Below are positions 43,889 through 48,463 of a stretch of 64,000 nucleotides of DNA, piece by piece. Source of the DNA: Phycisphaerae bacterium (GTDB lineage Bacteria; Planctomycetota; Phycisphaerae; Sedimentisphaerales; Anaerobacaceae). The stretch's first letter is position 1, and every line of letters starts with the position of its first letter. Below the pieces are notes generated by a model that was not told the DNA's origin, did no database searches, and worked only from the letters and a program-made list of their open reading frames with translations. The DNA lies in contig JAAYBV010000055.1 of assembly GCA_012744475.1 (NCBI GenBank), forward strand, positions 62,001 to 126,000. Direction: 5' to 3'. The position numbers were made by a program, and so were the translations under genes.

Positions 43889-44368
43889 TCAATCCGCGGC
43901 ATCGGCCTTGGGCGTGAAGAAGACCAGCGAGACCAGCACCAGTCCAGCCCCGGCCAGGAACAGGGCAATCCGATGCCTCGGCTCGCTACACCGCTGGAGC
44001 CACTTTGGAATGGTAGCGTCGCTCGGCCCCTGTCCGGTCTCGTCCATCAGCGCCCGGCGCGCCACGGCCAGTTCCTGCGCCCTCGCTTTTGGATAGACGG
44101 CGTTGGGGTCCTCCGGCGGCGTGCCCAAGGTGGCCGGAGCGATCCGCTTCAGCAGGCTCGGATCGTCCTGAAGCTCCTTGAGCAGTGCATCGTACTCGTC
44201 GTTGAGCGATCGGAGGCGATCCAGCGAGAGGTGAGCATCCCTGACAAGCTGTTCGTTTCGCCAGTAGAGAATCAGGTCGTCGCACAGGGCCGCTCCTCCA
44301 AGTGCACCAGCACCGACGCTGAAGAAGGCCACAAAGAGCAGGAAGTGGACGATCTTTTGACTCTGCAT
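43889..44368 (-). CDS. Two-TM protein resembling FtsB/DivIC septum-formation initiators
   Basis: A 159-residue protein: an N-terminal membrane helix (IVHFLLFVAFFSVGAGALGG), then a helical, coiled-coil-like stretch (LSLDRLRSLNDEYDALLKEL) followed by DDPSLLKRIA, and a second membrane helix near the C-terminus. The first part has the layout of FtsB/DivIC proteins (single helix, coiled coil, then a DPxxLxRxA-type segment). In many bacteria ftsB lies directly downstream of eno, and here the gene follows the enolase-domain gene on the same strand, which supports the reading. The second helix is not usual for FtsB. Ribosome site is weak. Role in the divisome is inferred. Confidence 0.55.
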   Translation of the reverse strand: MQSQKIVHFLLFVAFFSVGAGALGGAALCDDLILYWRNEQLVRDAHLSLDRLRSLNDEYDALLKELQDDPSLLKRIAPATLGTPPEDPNAVYPKARAQELAVARRALMDETGQGPSDATIPKWLQRCSEPRHRIALFLAGAGLVLVSLVFFTPKADAAD

Positions 44369-44562: not shown

Positions 44563-47280
44563 CTATACCGGGTAAACGGGCAACTGCGCTCGCAGCAGTT
44601 CGTAGACGGTCTTGCCGCTCTTGACGCACTCGCCCGCCGTCTGCCGGTACTGCGTGGTCAACTGGTCAAAGTCCAACTTCTTGAGCTCGGCTAGGCTCTT
44701 CTTGCCGCCATTGGTGACGATGAACTTGGCCATGGTGTCGCTGGCGATGTCGCGAGTGAGCTGCCACAGTTCGCGACCATCCGCTGCCGCCACCGCCCGG
44801 CCCAGAGCCAGCGACATCGACAGGATGGCGTTCATGCCCAGCAGCCCTTTGCGCTGCATGGCATGGATCTTCTCGTCGTTCGAGGCGTTCTTGCTGATGC
44901 GCCCGGCGGCCATCGCCTGCTCCAGTTCCAGAGCGAGCAGTTGGCGGTCGGTGTCGAGCAGCGAGCCCAACGAGCCGACGCGCTTGCCGACGAAGGCCTT
45001 GGCGAGCACGGTCTCAATGTGCTGGACGGCGTCCATGCAACCCTTACCCTCGTACCGGCGGGACTTCCTCCAGAGGGCCAGGAGCTTCTCATCGTTCTTG
45101 CCCCGGACCGCATCGGACTTGACATCCTTCTTGAAGCGGAAGGTGCCGTCGCCGGCGTCCTTGAACAGGTCGGGATACTTCTTGGTGCTCTCGCACGGCT
45201 CGATGATACTGTCCACGTAGTGGATGGCTTCGTCCTCGCCGGCGGAAGTGCCCAGAGGCGTGGAACCCTTGAACCGAATGATGCCGCTCTTGCCGAGGAA
45301 GAGCGTGGCGGCTGCCGAGGGGATACCGGCGTTGGTCGCCTCTTCGGTGCCGCTGACCGCCTCGATCGCCAGCATCTTCATCAGAAGGCTGGTCAGATCG
45401 ATATCGGCCGCCTTCGGGGAAATCGTGACGTCGTCGCGTCCGGTAAACGTCTTGACCAAGTCCTTGACGCTTGCCTCGAGCTCTTTGCGCTCCTCGGCTG
45501 TGGTCTGTCGCTGTGTAGCGCGGGCCAAGGCGAGGATTTCCATCATGCGGCCATACTTCTGGAGGCGCTCCGTGTTGGCGCCGCCGCCGCACTTGACGCC
45601 CAGCGCGTTCATCGCAGCACCGATCTCCGCCTCAAACGGATCGTTCGGGCTCTTGGACCGGTGCGAGATCACCAGTTCGGCGCCGTAGGCCAGCGAGGTC
45701 AGCATGGCCAGCACGGTCTCGGTCAGAGTGCCGATCTGGTTGGCCTTGATCAGCGTAGCGTTGATTTCGCCATTCTTGGCGCACTTCTCGATGTTCGAAT
45801 CCTTGGTGGTGACCAAGTCGTCGCCGATGATGAAGATCTTGTCGCCAAGCTCCTTCATCATGTTCTTCCAGCCCTGATGGTCGCGCTCACCGAAGCCATC
45901 CTCGATCGACAAAACCGGGATACCCGCCTGCATGGCCTCCTTGAAGAGGTTAAGGATGTCGTCACGGCTCATCTCGACCTTGTCCTTGTCACGCCAGAAG
46001 CGGTACATGCCGACGGAGTCGGGCTCGCCGCGCTCTTCACGATAGGCGTTCTCGAGTTCGGAGCAGGCCGGGTCGAGGGCGATGGCGACATCGACCCCGG
46101 GGACGTACTCGCAGTCCAGAATGGCCTGCTTCATGAATCGCCACATCCTCTGCTCGGGCACCTTGTCGCCCTGCTCCTTGTCGATGTAGGGCGCGATGCC
46201 GCCTTCCAGACCGACACCCATCACCTTGGCGCCCGGGGCCGCCTCGATAATCTCCTTGAGGCGGTACTGGAGCTTCACGGTCATTTCCTGGGCGTCTTCA
46301 TAGGTCTTCGGCGAAAGCGGCATGAACATGCTTTCCTGCATGGAGATGTTGCTTTCGGGGTATTCCTTCTCGGTGTGTCGGCCGCCCATGGCGCAGTTTC
46401 GGAACTGCCAAGGGGCCGCGACGCGGCTGCCATCCTTCAAGGTGACGGACTGCATACGCGTGGTCAGCAGCTTCTGCTTGACCGCGGTGACCTGTACTGG
46501 CCAACTCTCCTTCGAGGCGGCAGCGGCGGCGCGAGCGGCCTGCTCGGCGGCGATCTTCTCGCGTGTGCGGAATTCCTTGAGCTTGCCCGGGTCGGCCAGG
46601 AATCTGTCCAGCAGCCCAACGATGCCCGGGGCCAGGAAGAACCGGCCGATGTAGATCATCCAATCCTGCTCTGCCCACAATCCCACGATGATGAAGAAGG
46701 CGGCAATCGGCAGGAAGAAGGTGGCGAGCCACTGGCTCCACACCGGCGCCGCGGCGGACACGGCCAGATTGTACGGAGCATCGGGAGCGAAGTTGCCGTT
46801 CTCTTTCCGAACGCCATAGAACTTGCCCGACGGGATCAAAAGGAACATCTGAGCGTAGTAGCCGAACTTGCTGCCGCCGGCCAGGGCCTTGTCGGCCTTC
46901 TCCTGCGAATCCTTGTTCAGAGCCGTCAGTTTGGCGGCGGTCAGGAAATGGCCCATCTCGTGGATCGCGATGGCGATGTGCCACGACAGATATAGAATCA
47001 CCAGCGAGATCCACAGTTCCATGTGCCACGGGGAGAACATGAAGTTCAGCACCACGTATTTGATGTTCTCGCCCGCAGCGGCTCGCGTGCTGAGCTCCGC
47101 AGCCGGAAGGCTCAGAACCGACGAAATGAAGGCGGCGTGGAACGACACCAGCTTGTGGTTGGCGATGACCCAGCCACGTTCCAGGTAGCCGGCGGGATTG
47201 ACCTGGACGCCGGGTGTCTCCGTCGCGCGTCCGCGCCTGCTGCTGCCCAGTTTCGCTGTCAGTTTTCTCAATTCGACCAT
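44563..47280 (-). CDS. M50-like membrane zinc metalloprotease fused to a domain-swapped (circularly permuted) enolase
   Basis: A 905-residue single frame. Residues 72-232 are membrane-embedded with the zinc motif HEMGH (107-111) and LLDRF (223-227) at the place of the M50 LDG motif. After an Ala-rich helical linker, residues about 285-590 are the enolase barrel: His302, Glu316, Glu359, Asp403, Glu460, Asp487, Lys512, HRS 540-542 and Lys563 all correspond to E. coli catalytic or metal residues. The enolase N-domain, normally first, follows at about 630-860: the mobile loop PLGTSAGEDEA, RYEGKGCMDAVQHI and GMNAILSMSLALGR. It carries an extra insertion near 690-740. It should convert 2-phosphoglycerate to phosphoenolpyruvate at the membrane. 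AAGGAGAAG precedes the ATG. Confidence 0.85.
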   Translation of the reverse strand: MVELRKLTAKLGSSRRGRATETPGVQVNPAGYLERGWVIANHKLVSFHAAFISSVLSLPAAELSTRAAAGENIKYVVLNFMFSPWHMELWISLVILYLSWHIAIAIHEMGHFLTAAKLTALNKDSQEKADKALAGGSKFGYYAQMFLLIPSGKFYGVRKENGNFAPDAPYNLAVSAAAPVWSQWLATFFLPIAAFFIIVGLWAEQDWMIYIGRFFLAPGIVGLLDRFLADPGKLKEFRTREKIAAEQAARAAAAASKESWPVQVTAVKQKLLTTRMQSVTLKDGSRVAAPWQFRNCAMGGRHTEKEYPESNISMQESMFMPLSPKTYEDAQEMTVKLQYRLKEIIEAAPGAKVMGVGLEGGIAPYIDKEQGDKVPEQRMWRFMKQAILDCEYVPGVDVAIALDPACSELENAYREERGEPDSVGMYRFWRDKDKVEMSRDDILNLFKEAMQAGIPVLSIEDGFGERDHQGWKNMMKELGDKIFIIGDDLVTTKDSNIEKCAKNGEINATLIKANQIGTLTETVLAMLTSLAYGAELVISHRSKSPNDPFEAEIGAAMNALGVKCGGGANTERLQKYGRMMEILALARATQRQTTAEERKELEASVKDLVKTFTGRDDVTISPKAADIDLTSLLMKMLAIEAVSGTEEATNAGIPSAAATLFLGKSGIIRFKGSTPLGTSAGEDEAIHYVDSIIEPCESTKKYPDLFKDAGDGTFRFKKDVKSDAVRGKNDEKLLALWRKSRRYEGKGCMDAVQHIETVLAKAFVGKRVGSLGSLLDTDRQLLALELEQAMAAGRISKNASNDEKIHAMQRKGLLGMNAILSMSLALGRAVAAADGRELWQLTRDIASDTMAKFIVTNGGKKSLAELKKLDFDQLTTQYRQTAGECVKSGKTVYELLRAQLPVYPV

Positions 47281-47433
47281 TTCGTTGCTTCTCCTTTTCC
47301 GTTATCTCTTCATCGAGACCTGCCGGCTTGCCGCCGAGAAGGCTCATGGGCTCTCTTCGCCAGGTTTTCTACCAGAGTCCGCCAGATCGGCGCGGTCACT
47401 GTCCGTACTTCTCCCGGCCTTGGGAAATGCAAG

Positions 47434-47582: not shown

Positions 47583-47737
47583 TAGTGGTAGAGGCGCCAG
47601 GGATCGAAGTGAGGGCTCCGGTCCCTGCACCACAGAGTGCCCGGTCGGATAGAACCGCCCGACGGACTATCTGCCCGCACACGTCTTTTTGTGGTTTCTT
47701 GTGACAGGGCCGATTGGGCGGAGGATCGGCCTTTTCT
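47583..47737 (+). ncRNA. Possible structured RNA of unknown class
   Basis: This part of the 496-base gap between two divergent genes has nested stems and no coding sense. GTGGT (47585-47589) pairs with ACCAC (47629-47633) and encloses CAGGGA (47598) with TCCCTG (47622). GTCGG (47644) pairs with CCGAC (47659). It ends at a terminator-like hairpin (47708-47737). No upstream promoter is convincing. It does not match 6S, RNase P, SRP or tmRNA signatures I could recall. It could instead be a leader of psd. Confidence 0.3.
47708..47737 (+). terminator. Rho-independent-type terminator
   Basis: GGCCGAT (47708-47714), ten-base loop, ATCGGCC (47725-47731), then TTTTCT. It reads on the plus strand, 40 bases before the psd ATG, although no plus-strand protein gene lies upstream. 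It therefore suggests either a small RNA ending here or an attenuator in the psd leader. Confidence 0.5.
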
Positions 47738-47776
47738 ATTGCCCGCACCACCGGCCGGGTCTATCATATCCGGCCT

Positions 47777-48463
47777 ATGAGGATACCATTGACTAGGTAT
47801 GGATGGCCCCAGGTGGTCGTCTACCCCGTTCTCGTCGTCGCGGCCATGCTGGCGGTCGCCCTCGGAGGGTCGGCGCACACACCTTTGTGGGCTGTCGTCG
47901 TGACGGAGGCCATCCTGGCGGTCGTACTGGTCTGGGCTCTGATGTTCTTCCGGGACCCTCGACGCAACGCACCACGGGACGAGATGCTATTTGTCGCTCC
48001 GGCTGACGGCAGGGTAACGGATATCGAGCAGACGCAACAGAACGAATTCCTCGAAGGACCCGCTCTGCGGATCGGTATCTTCCTGAGCATCTTCAACGTG
48101 CACATCAACCGATCCCCGTGCAGCGCCAGGGTCGAGACAATTGCTTATCGCAAAGGCAGTTACCTCAACGCCATGAACCCCCTGTCGGCCAAGGTCAACG
48201 AGTCGAACACGCTGACCCTGGTGCGGACTGAGGAACCCAAGGAACGTCTGGTAGTGCGGCAGGTCAGCGGAGCCATCGCCAGACGCATTGTCTGCGAAGC
48301 GAAGGAAGGCGGCAGCTTGAGCCAGGGCCAGGCGTTCGGCATGATCAAATTCGGTTCTCGAACCGAACTCTATGTGCCCGCGAGCATGCCAATCGAGTGT
48401 CTGGTCTGCATCGGGGATGCCGTCAAGGCAGGCGTTACTCCTCTATTGAGGTATGGAAAGTGA
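47777..48463 (+). CDS. psd: Phosphatidylserine decarboxylase proenzyme (short form)
   Basis: A 228-residue membrane-linked enzyme making phosphatidylethanolamine from phosphatidylserine. Two N-terminal hydrophobic segments are followed by FFRDPRRNAP and APADGRVTDIE, then FLSIFNVHINRSP, the conserved His-containing block. The self-cleavage site that creates the pyruvoyl group is IKFGSRTELYVP (Gly-Ser). The length fits the short archaeal/Bacillus-like class. The ATG at 47777 is preferred because homology starts there; a longer upstream frame has no family sequence. The stop overlaps the pssA start, so both steps of PE synthesis are coupled. Confidence 0.92.
   Translation: MRIPLTRYGWPQVVVYPVLVVAAMLAVALGGSAHTPLWAVVVTEAILAVVLVWALMFFRDPRRNAPRDEMLFVAPADGRVTDIEQTQQNEFLEGPALRIGIFLSIFNVHINRSPCSARVETIAYRKGSYLNAMNPLSAKVNESNTLTLVRTEEPKERLVVRQVSGAIARRIVCEAKEGGSLSQGQAFGMIKFGSRTELYVPASMPIECLVCIGDAVKAGVTPLLRYGK

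Follow-up and report, generated by a model that had tools for sequence, protein, structure and literature searches.

A candidate membrane-tethered enolase with reversed domain order, joined to an M50-like domain, in a Phycisphaerae bacterium and its relatives

Enolase is among life's most conserved enzymes, and we know of no natural enolase in which the order of the domains is swapped. The gene described here lies in a window of 64,000 nucleotides, the whole stretch of Phycisphaerae DNA that was analysed, and encodes an M50-like membrane domain followed by the two enolase domains in the opposite order. Openly licensed papers yielded no account of a permuted enolase, nor of a fusion between an M50 domain and an enolase.

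The closest described systems are enolase itself, peptidase family M50 and the dikinases. Like enolase (phosphopyruvate hydratase, TIGR01060), the fusion has the barrel, the N-domain, the metal ligands, the catalytic Lys, Glu, His and Arg, and the loop serine; unlike enolase, it has a reversed domain order, insertions in the N-domain, a preceding membrane domain and two altered motifs, and its TIGR01060 equivalog score, 199.8 bits, is below the curated cut-off of 300. It shares with family M50 (site-2 or RseP-type proteases) an HExxH in a hydrophobic stretch, an AGP-like motif and a later Asp, here in LLD, but the copy of the window does not reach the Pfam cut-off, it has LLDR in place of the LDG motif, and the domain is joined to a metabolic enzyme. 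Finally, some related loci encode a partner that resembles pyruvate phosphate dikinase (PPDK) or PEP synthase in its ATP-grasp and phosphohistidine domains, but that lacks the PEP/pyruvate barrel and is fused to, or lies near, the permuted enolase. The features of the locus are collected in Table 1.

Table 1. Features of the fusion gene and its flanks, in window coordinates.
Feature	Position	Strand	Basis
Whole gene, M50-like domain and permuted enolase, ATG start, 905 aa plus stop	44563..47280	-	ORF; full-length orthologues
Shine-Dalgarno-like AAGGAG, 10 nt upstream of the ATG	47291..47296	-	Sequence reading
M50-like membrane domain, residues 31-230 (HExxH 107-111, AAP/AGP motif, D225)	46591..47190	-	Weak Pfam M50 match; matches of relatives; hydropathy
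HEMGH, residues 107-111, putative zinc site	46948..46962	-	H, E and H invariant in 71/71 aligned relatives
Enolase barrel, residues 292-582 (H302, E316, E359, D403, E460, D487, K512, H540, R541, K563)	45535..46407	-	Enolase_C E 1.5e-48; fold Z about 20; residue mapping and invariance
Linker, residues 583-639, from barrel end to N-domain start	45364..45534	-	Variable among relatives; no domain match
Enolase N-domain placed behind the barrel, residues 640-845	44746..45363	-	PF03952 E 6.9e-10; hhalign 98.5%; three-strand meander
Mobile catalytic loop PLGTSAG, residues 675-681 (S679, Mg-binding loop serine)	45238..45258	-	Residue mapping; S in 74/75
C-terminal helical tail, residues 846-905, no assigned domain	44566..44745	-	Structure model
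Small membrane-protein gene ("FtsB-like"), 3' of the fusion here and of canonical eno in relatives	43889..44368	-	Synteny
psd (phosphatidylserine decarboxylase), divergent, bordering the eno slot	47714..48463	+	PF02666 E 5e-36; synteny

Domain order and conserved sites

The original prediction, made from the sequence alone, described a membrane zinc metalloprotease fused to an enolase whose barrel comes before its N-domain. The barrel was identified by a Pfam scan of the fusion protein (Enolase_C, PF00113), and an AlphaFold2 model of residues 261-905, built on an alignment of 23 relatives (pLDDT 75, pTM 0.81), gives it the fold of the enolase barrel: the structure search returns many enolases, including that of E. 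coli, with Z scores of 19-20. Because barrel matches fill the list of this search, sequence profiles were used for the N-domain instead. The Enolase_N profile (PF03952) has a cut-off of 35 bits; it reaches 34.6 bits on the whole protein, and 39.6 bits on the C-terminal third alone. When the C-terminal domain of the relatives is aligned to canonical N-domains with hhalign, residues 640-844 correspond to columns 4-135 of 137, in order, with 98.5% probability and E 3.8e-15, and wrong-domain control pairs have a probability below 1%. As judged from these profiles, the reversed order is thus real, and the chain that runs from M50-like membrane domain to enolase barrel to enolase N-domain is a circular permutation at the level of domains. 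Behind the modelled barrel, a three-stranded meander is followed by helices, as in the enolase N-domain; the resemblance predicted for residues 630-860 is therefore found in both profile and model. The fusion combines an Enolase_C barrel, an Enolase_N domain and the full set of catalytic residues, and the arrangement of TIGR01060 enolases, with the N-domain before the barrel, was met neither in it nor in the relatives examined.

Each catalytic residue that had been matched to E. coli enolase, like the loop serine, has its own counterpart in the canonical enolase that the window genome also encodes. In 75 aligned proteins, H302, Q315, E316, E359, D403, E460, D461, D487, K512, H540, R541, S542 and K563 are invariant wherever they are present. 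The mobile loop survives, as predicted, with its serine in 74 of the 75, although the ordinary PSGASTG has become PLGTSAG; the ordinary GDEGG similarly reads GLEGG, with L in 69 of 74 proteins. Given these two changes, the rate or the substrate of the fusion may differ from those of ordinary enolase.

The evidence on the membrane domain is of several kinds. The Pfam profile Peptidase_M50 (PF02163) matches the window protein at residues 102-260 with E 0.05 and 13.3 bits, against a gathering threshold of 27.2; among 43 diverse members, 27 match at E<0.01, the best at 1.6e-6. When hhalign compares the domain with RseP-type proteins encoded by related genomes, it reports 92.9% for a stretch of 42 columns around the HExxH; hydropathy indicates several membrane segments. 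The model of this domain is of middling confidence (pLDDT 72) and has no clear structure match: its best matches (Z about 6) are helical proteins associated with translocons and are uninformative, and at this pLDDT the absence of site-2 protease matches carries no weight. A profile search of solved structures with the M50-like part produced no match. The metal site of M50, an HExxH with a later Asp ligand, is present, and it is conserved: H107, E108 and H111 in 71 of 71 aligned relatives, D225 in 71 of 73. The metalloprotease of the original prediction is thus plausible as an M50-like domain with an invariant site, while its Pfam support as an M50 member is weak; given that site, the protease half is probably functional.

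The fusion is present in 27 of the 89 genomes, and 13 of the 45 genera, of the window's family, at 65-87% identity; a sample of the phylum added two further genomes. Relatives that keep the frame at full length do so with 70-87% identity. Scanning genome contigs with a profile of the permuted N-domain gave at least 79 loci, some of which coincide with records of the family genomes. The loci come from at least about 19 groups at phylum level, of which two are archaeal; most are MAG contigs whose individual phylum assignments are unsure. Readable loci show the M50-like domain, the barrel and the N-domain in this order, a few being split by a frame break or a contig end. The single 905-codon frame that had been read in the window is therefore real, and an assembly error is ruled out: dozens of assemblies, made independently and belonging to different phyla, contain the same joined frame.

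Some loci have architectures of their own. An Omnitrophota contig (L193:2-20827) carries an open frame of 6942 amino acids with an M50-permuted enolase unit in its middle, and at L183:3-6860 two successive units of barrel and N-domain share one frame, apparently a tandem permuted enolase. In six WOR-3/Stahlbacteria loci (L159, L160, L164, L165, L173 and L186), a membrane iron-sulphur protein is encoded upstream of the fusion; the one tested among the six, that of L159, is a Fer4_5 protein.

The fusion and the canonical eno

The original prediction also held that the fusion may be the organism's glycolytic enolase. As the sole enolase of the window genome it fails, since a genome search found a canonical eno of 433 amino acids on another contig (L001:1462-2763), scoring 573 bits with TIGR01060 against the cut-off of 300. 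This second gene is one half of what was to refute the claim, the other half being a fusion that lacks activity. The claim is favoured elsewhere: of the 27 genomes in the family that carry the fusion, mostly draft MAGs, 16 yielded no canonical eno. In this family, 53 of the 62 fusion-free genomes have a canonical eno, compared with 11 of the 27 that carry the fusion (where one of the genes is fragmented), a difference with a Fisher p of 5e-5 when shared ancestry is ignored. Incompleteness of the genomes alone does not explain the gap, because 25 of these 27 genomes do show phosphoglycerate kinase; the canonical eno is also absent from five fusion genomes that are at least 90% complete (G070, G023, G103, G108 and G109).

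In other branches, 25 of 31 sampled fusion genomes have a canonical eno, and none was seen in the remaining six. With the window genome, these cases make the fusion usually a second enolase outside part of the window's family. The canonical eno is a close neighbour of the fusion in WOR-3, Stahlbacteria, one further bacterium and two archaea (the gene order at L176 is fusion, eno, DivIC), and there the fusion must do something more than replace eno.

The position of the gene is informative as well. In many fusion-free relatives, the small membrane-protein gene that follows the fusion here is found 24-129 bp after the canonical eno, and psd-pssA lies on the other side of eno where the contig reaches (L208, L210, L211). 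The relatives thus read psd / canonical eno > small membrane gene where the window reads psd / fusion > same gene, and the fusion sits in the same slot in several genera (L108, L110, L111, L112, L115, L142). Both flanks agree with the earlier placement of the fusion in the chromosomal position of eno. That placement relied on an FtsB-like gene following, as after eno: the relatives confirm the neighbourhood, but the FtsB identity is only putative, Pfam giving no match for the gene. Within the family the gene keeps its place after eno, whether or not it is a relative of FtsB.

Three fusion-free genomes of the same genus (G004, G005 and G001, at L204, L205 and L206) hold a third type of canonical eno in the slot, inverted. 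In a quick tree with long branches, the native enos cluster together with a support of 80. The canonical enos of the ten fusion genomes that were placed form a cluster of their own with full support, and none of these genomes has the native type. The canonical eno of the window genome belongs to a clade common only to other fusion genomes, not to the family's native type; the genome may have gained it following the loss of the native eno. It seems that ordinary eno and fusion have taken each other's place at this locus, which is what functional equivalence predicts; the direction of each exchange is inferred. In the window's lineage, gene order and the tree argue that the fusion replaced the native eno at its own locus, a gene displacement, and it is on this ground that we read the fusion as a functional enolase, circularly permuted and tethered to the membrane.

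Proposed function and alternatives

We assign a probability of about 0.7 to the reading in which the gene encodes a circularly permuted enolase that is tethered to the membrane, follows an M50-like intramembrane metalloprotease domain in the chain, and interconverts 2-phosphoglycerate (2-PG) and PEP. By homology, K512, the barrel lysine, and E359, as acid, would carry out the usual proton chemistry, with two Mg2+ held by D403, E460 and D487. The displaced N-domain would fold back through the linker of roughly 57 residues, allowing the loop serine to close the site as usual, and the membrane domain would keep the enzyme at the membrane. More speculatively, the protease site (H107, E108, H111 and D225) could be active and coupled to the state of the enolase.

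The fusion is a new build of enolase, real and widely distributed, and most likely an active, membrane-held permuted enzyme that took the eno locus in the window's lineage. If it is active, then the enolase fold tolerates circular permutation, and a core glycolytic enzyme can be fixed to the membrane and displace the ordinary gene. Genomes scored as having no enolase may carry the permuted fusion; through it, a connection of central metabolism with membrane proteolysis also becomes open to direct test.

It could be argued that the enolase part is a sensor of 2-PG or PEP that switches intramembrane proteolysis by the M50-like part, catalysis being secondary. The M50 metal site is indeed as invariant as the enolase site, the two parts are joined at almost all loci whose length allows a verdict, and bulk catalysis is unneeded in most other phyla, where a canonical eno is also present, close by at several loci. 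However, a mere sensor need not keep all the catalytic residues, and need not displace eno or be the sole enolase found in 16 genomes; we consider this alternative unlikely. A different reaction, in which the permuted enolase supplies the missing barrel of the PPDK-like partner in the transfer of a phosphoryl group, with PEP, 2-PG or a similar acid as donor or acceptor, draws on the partner itself, which is fused to the permuted enolase in 12 of the 79 listed loci and within about 2 kb in 14 more, and which matches PPDK only at positions 14-515 of 865, with the phosphohistidine kept in 21 of 22 partners. The GLEGG and loop changes would also suit it. Against it, the partner was not seen nearby in 53 of the 79 listed loci, nor in the window, whose genome encodes several PPDK_N proteins but none linked to the fusion locus, and every canonical enolase residue is kept; such a reaction seems distinctly improbable. 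As for the possibilities that two genes were joined by an artefact of assembly or frame, or that the gene is a degenerate pseudogene, nothing beyond the draft status of the MAGs speaks for either, and a frame that recurs across phyla with invariant active sites leaves them a negligible chance.

The permuted enolase may also belong to a larger scheme. The presence of the partner in 26 of the 79 listed loci points to PEP chemistry as a common theme, and that the enolase barrel stands in for the barrel lost by the partner is speculation. Bolder still, and rather doubtful as a whole, is the picture of an ancient membrane enzyme in which the 2-PG/PEP state of the permuted enolase would control intramembrane proteolysis, in several phyla together with a barrel-less dikinase, and on which alone some bacteria would run lower glycolysis.

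Several individual loci deserve mention in this context. A planctomycete protein of 2165 amino acids (L105:981-7475, from G406, the same record as L200) has the M50-like domain, the permuted enolase, PPDK_N and PEP-utilisers domains in one chain. Barrel-less PPDK-like proteins adjoin or lie near the permuted enolase at L155, L157, L152, L201, L189, L190, L194, L177, L185, L184, L171, L179, L181 and L192. On a gammaproteobacterial contig, a fused permuted enolase-PPDK gene is followed by a gene for a PPK2 polyphosphate kinase (L198:9106-10623).
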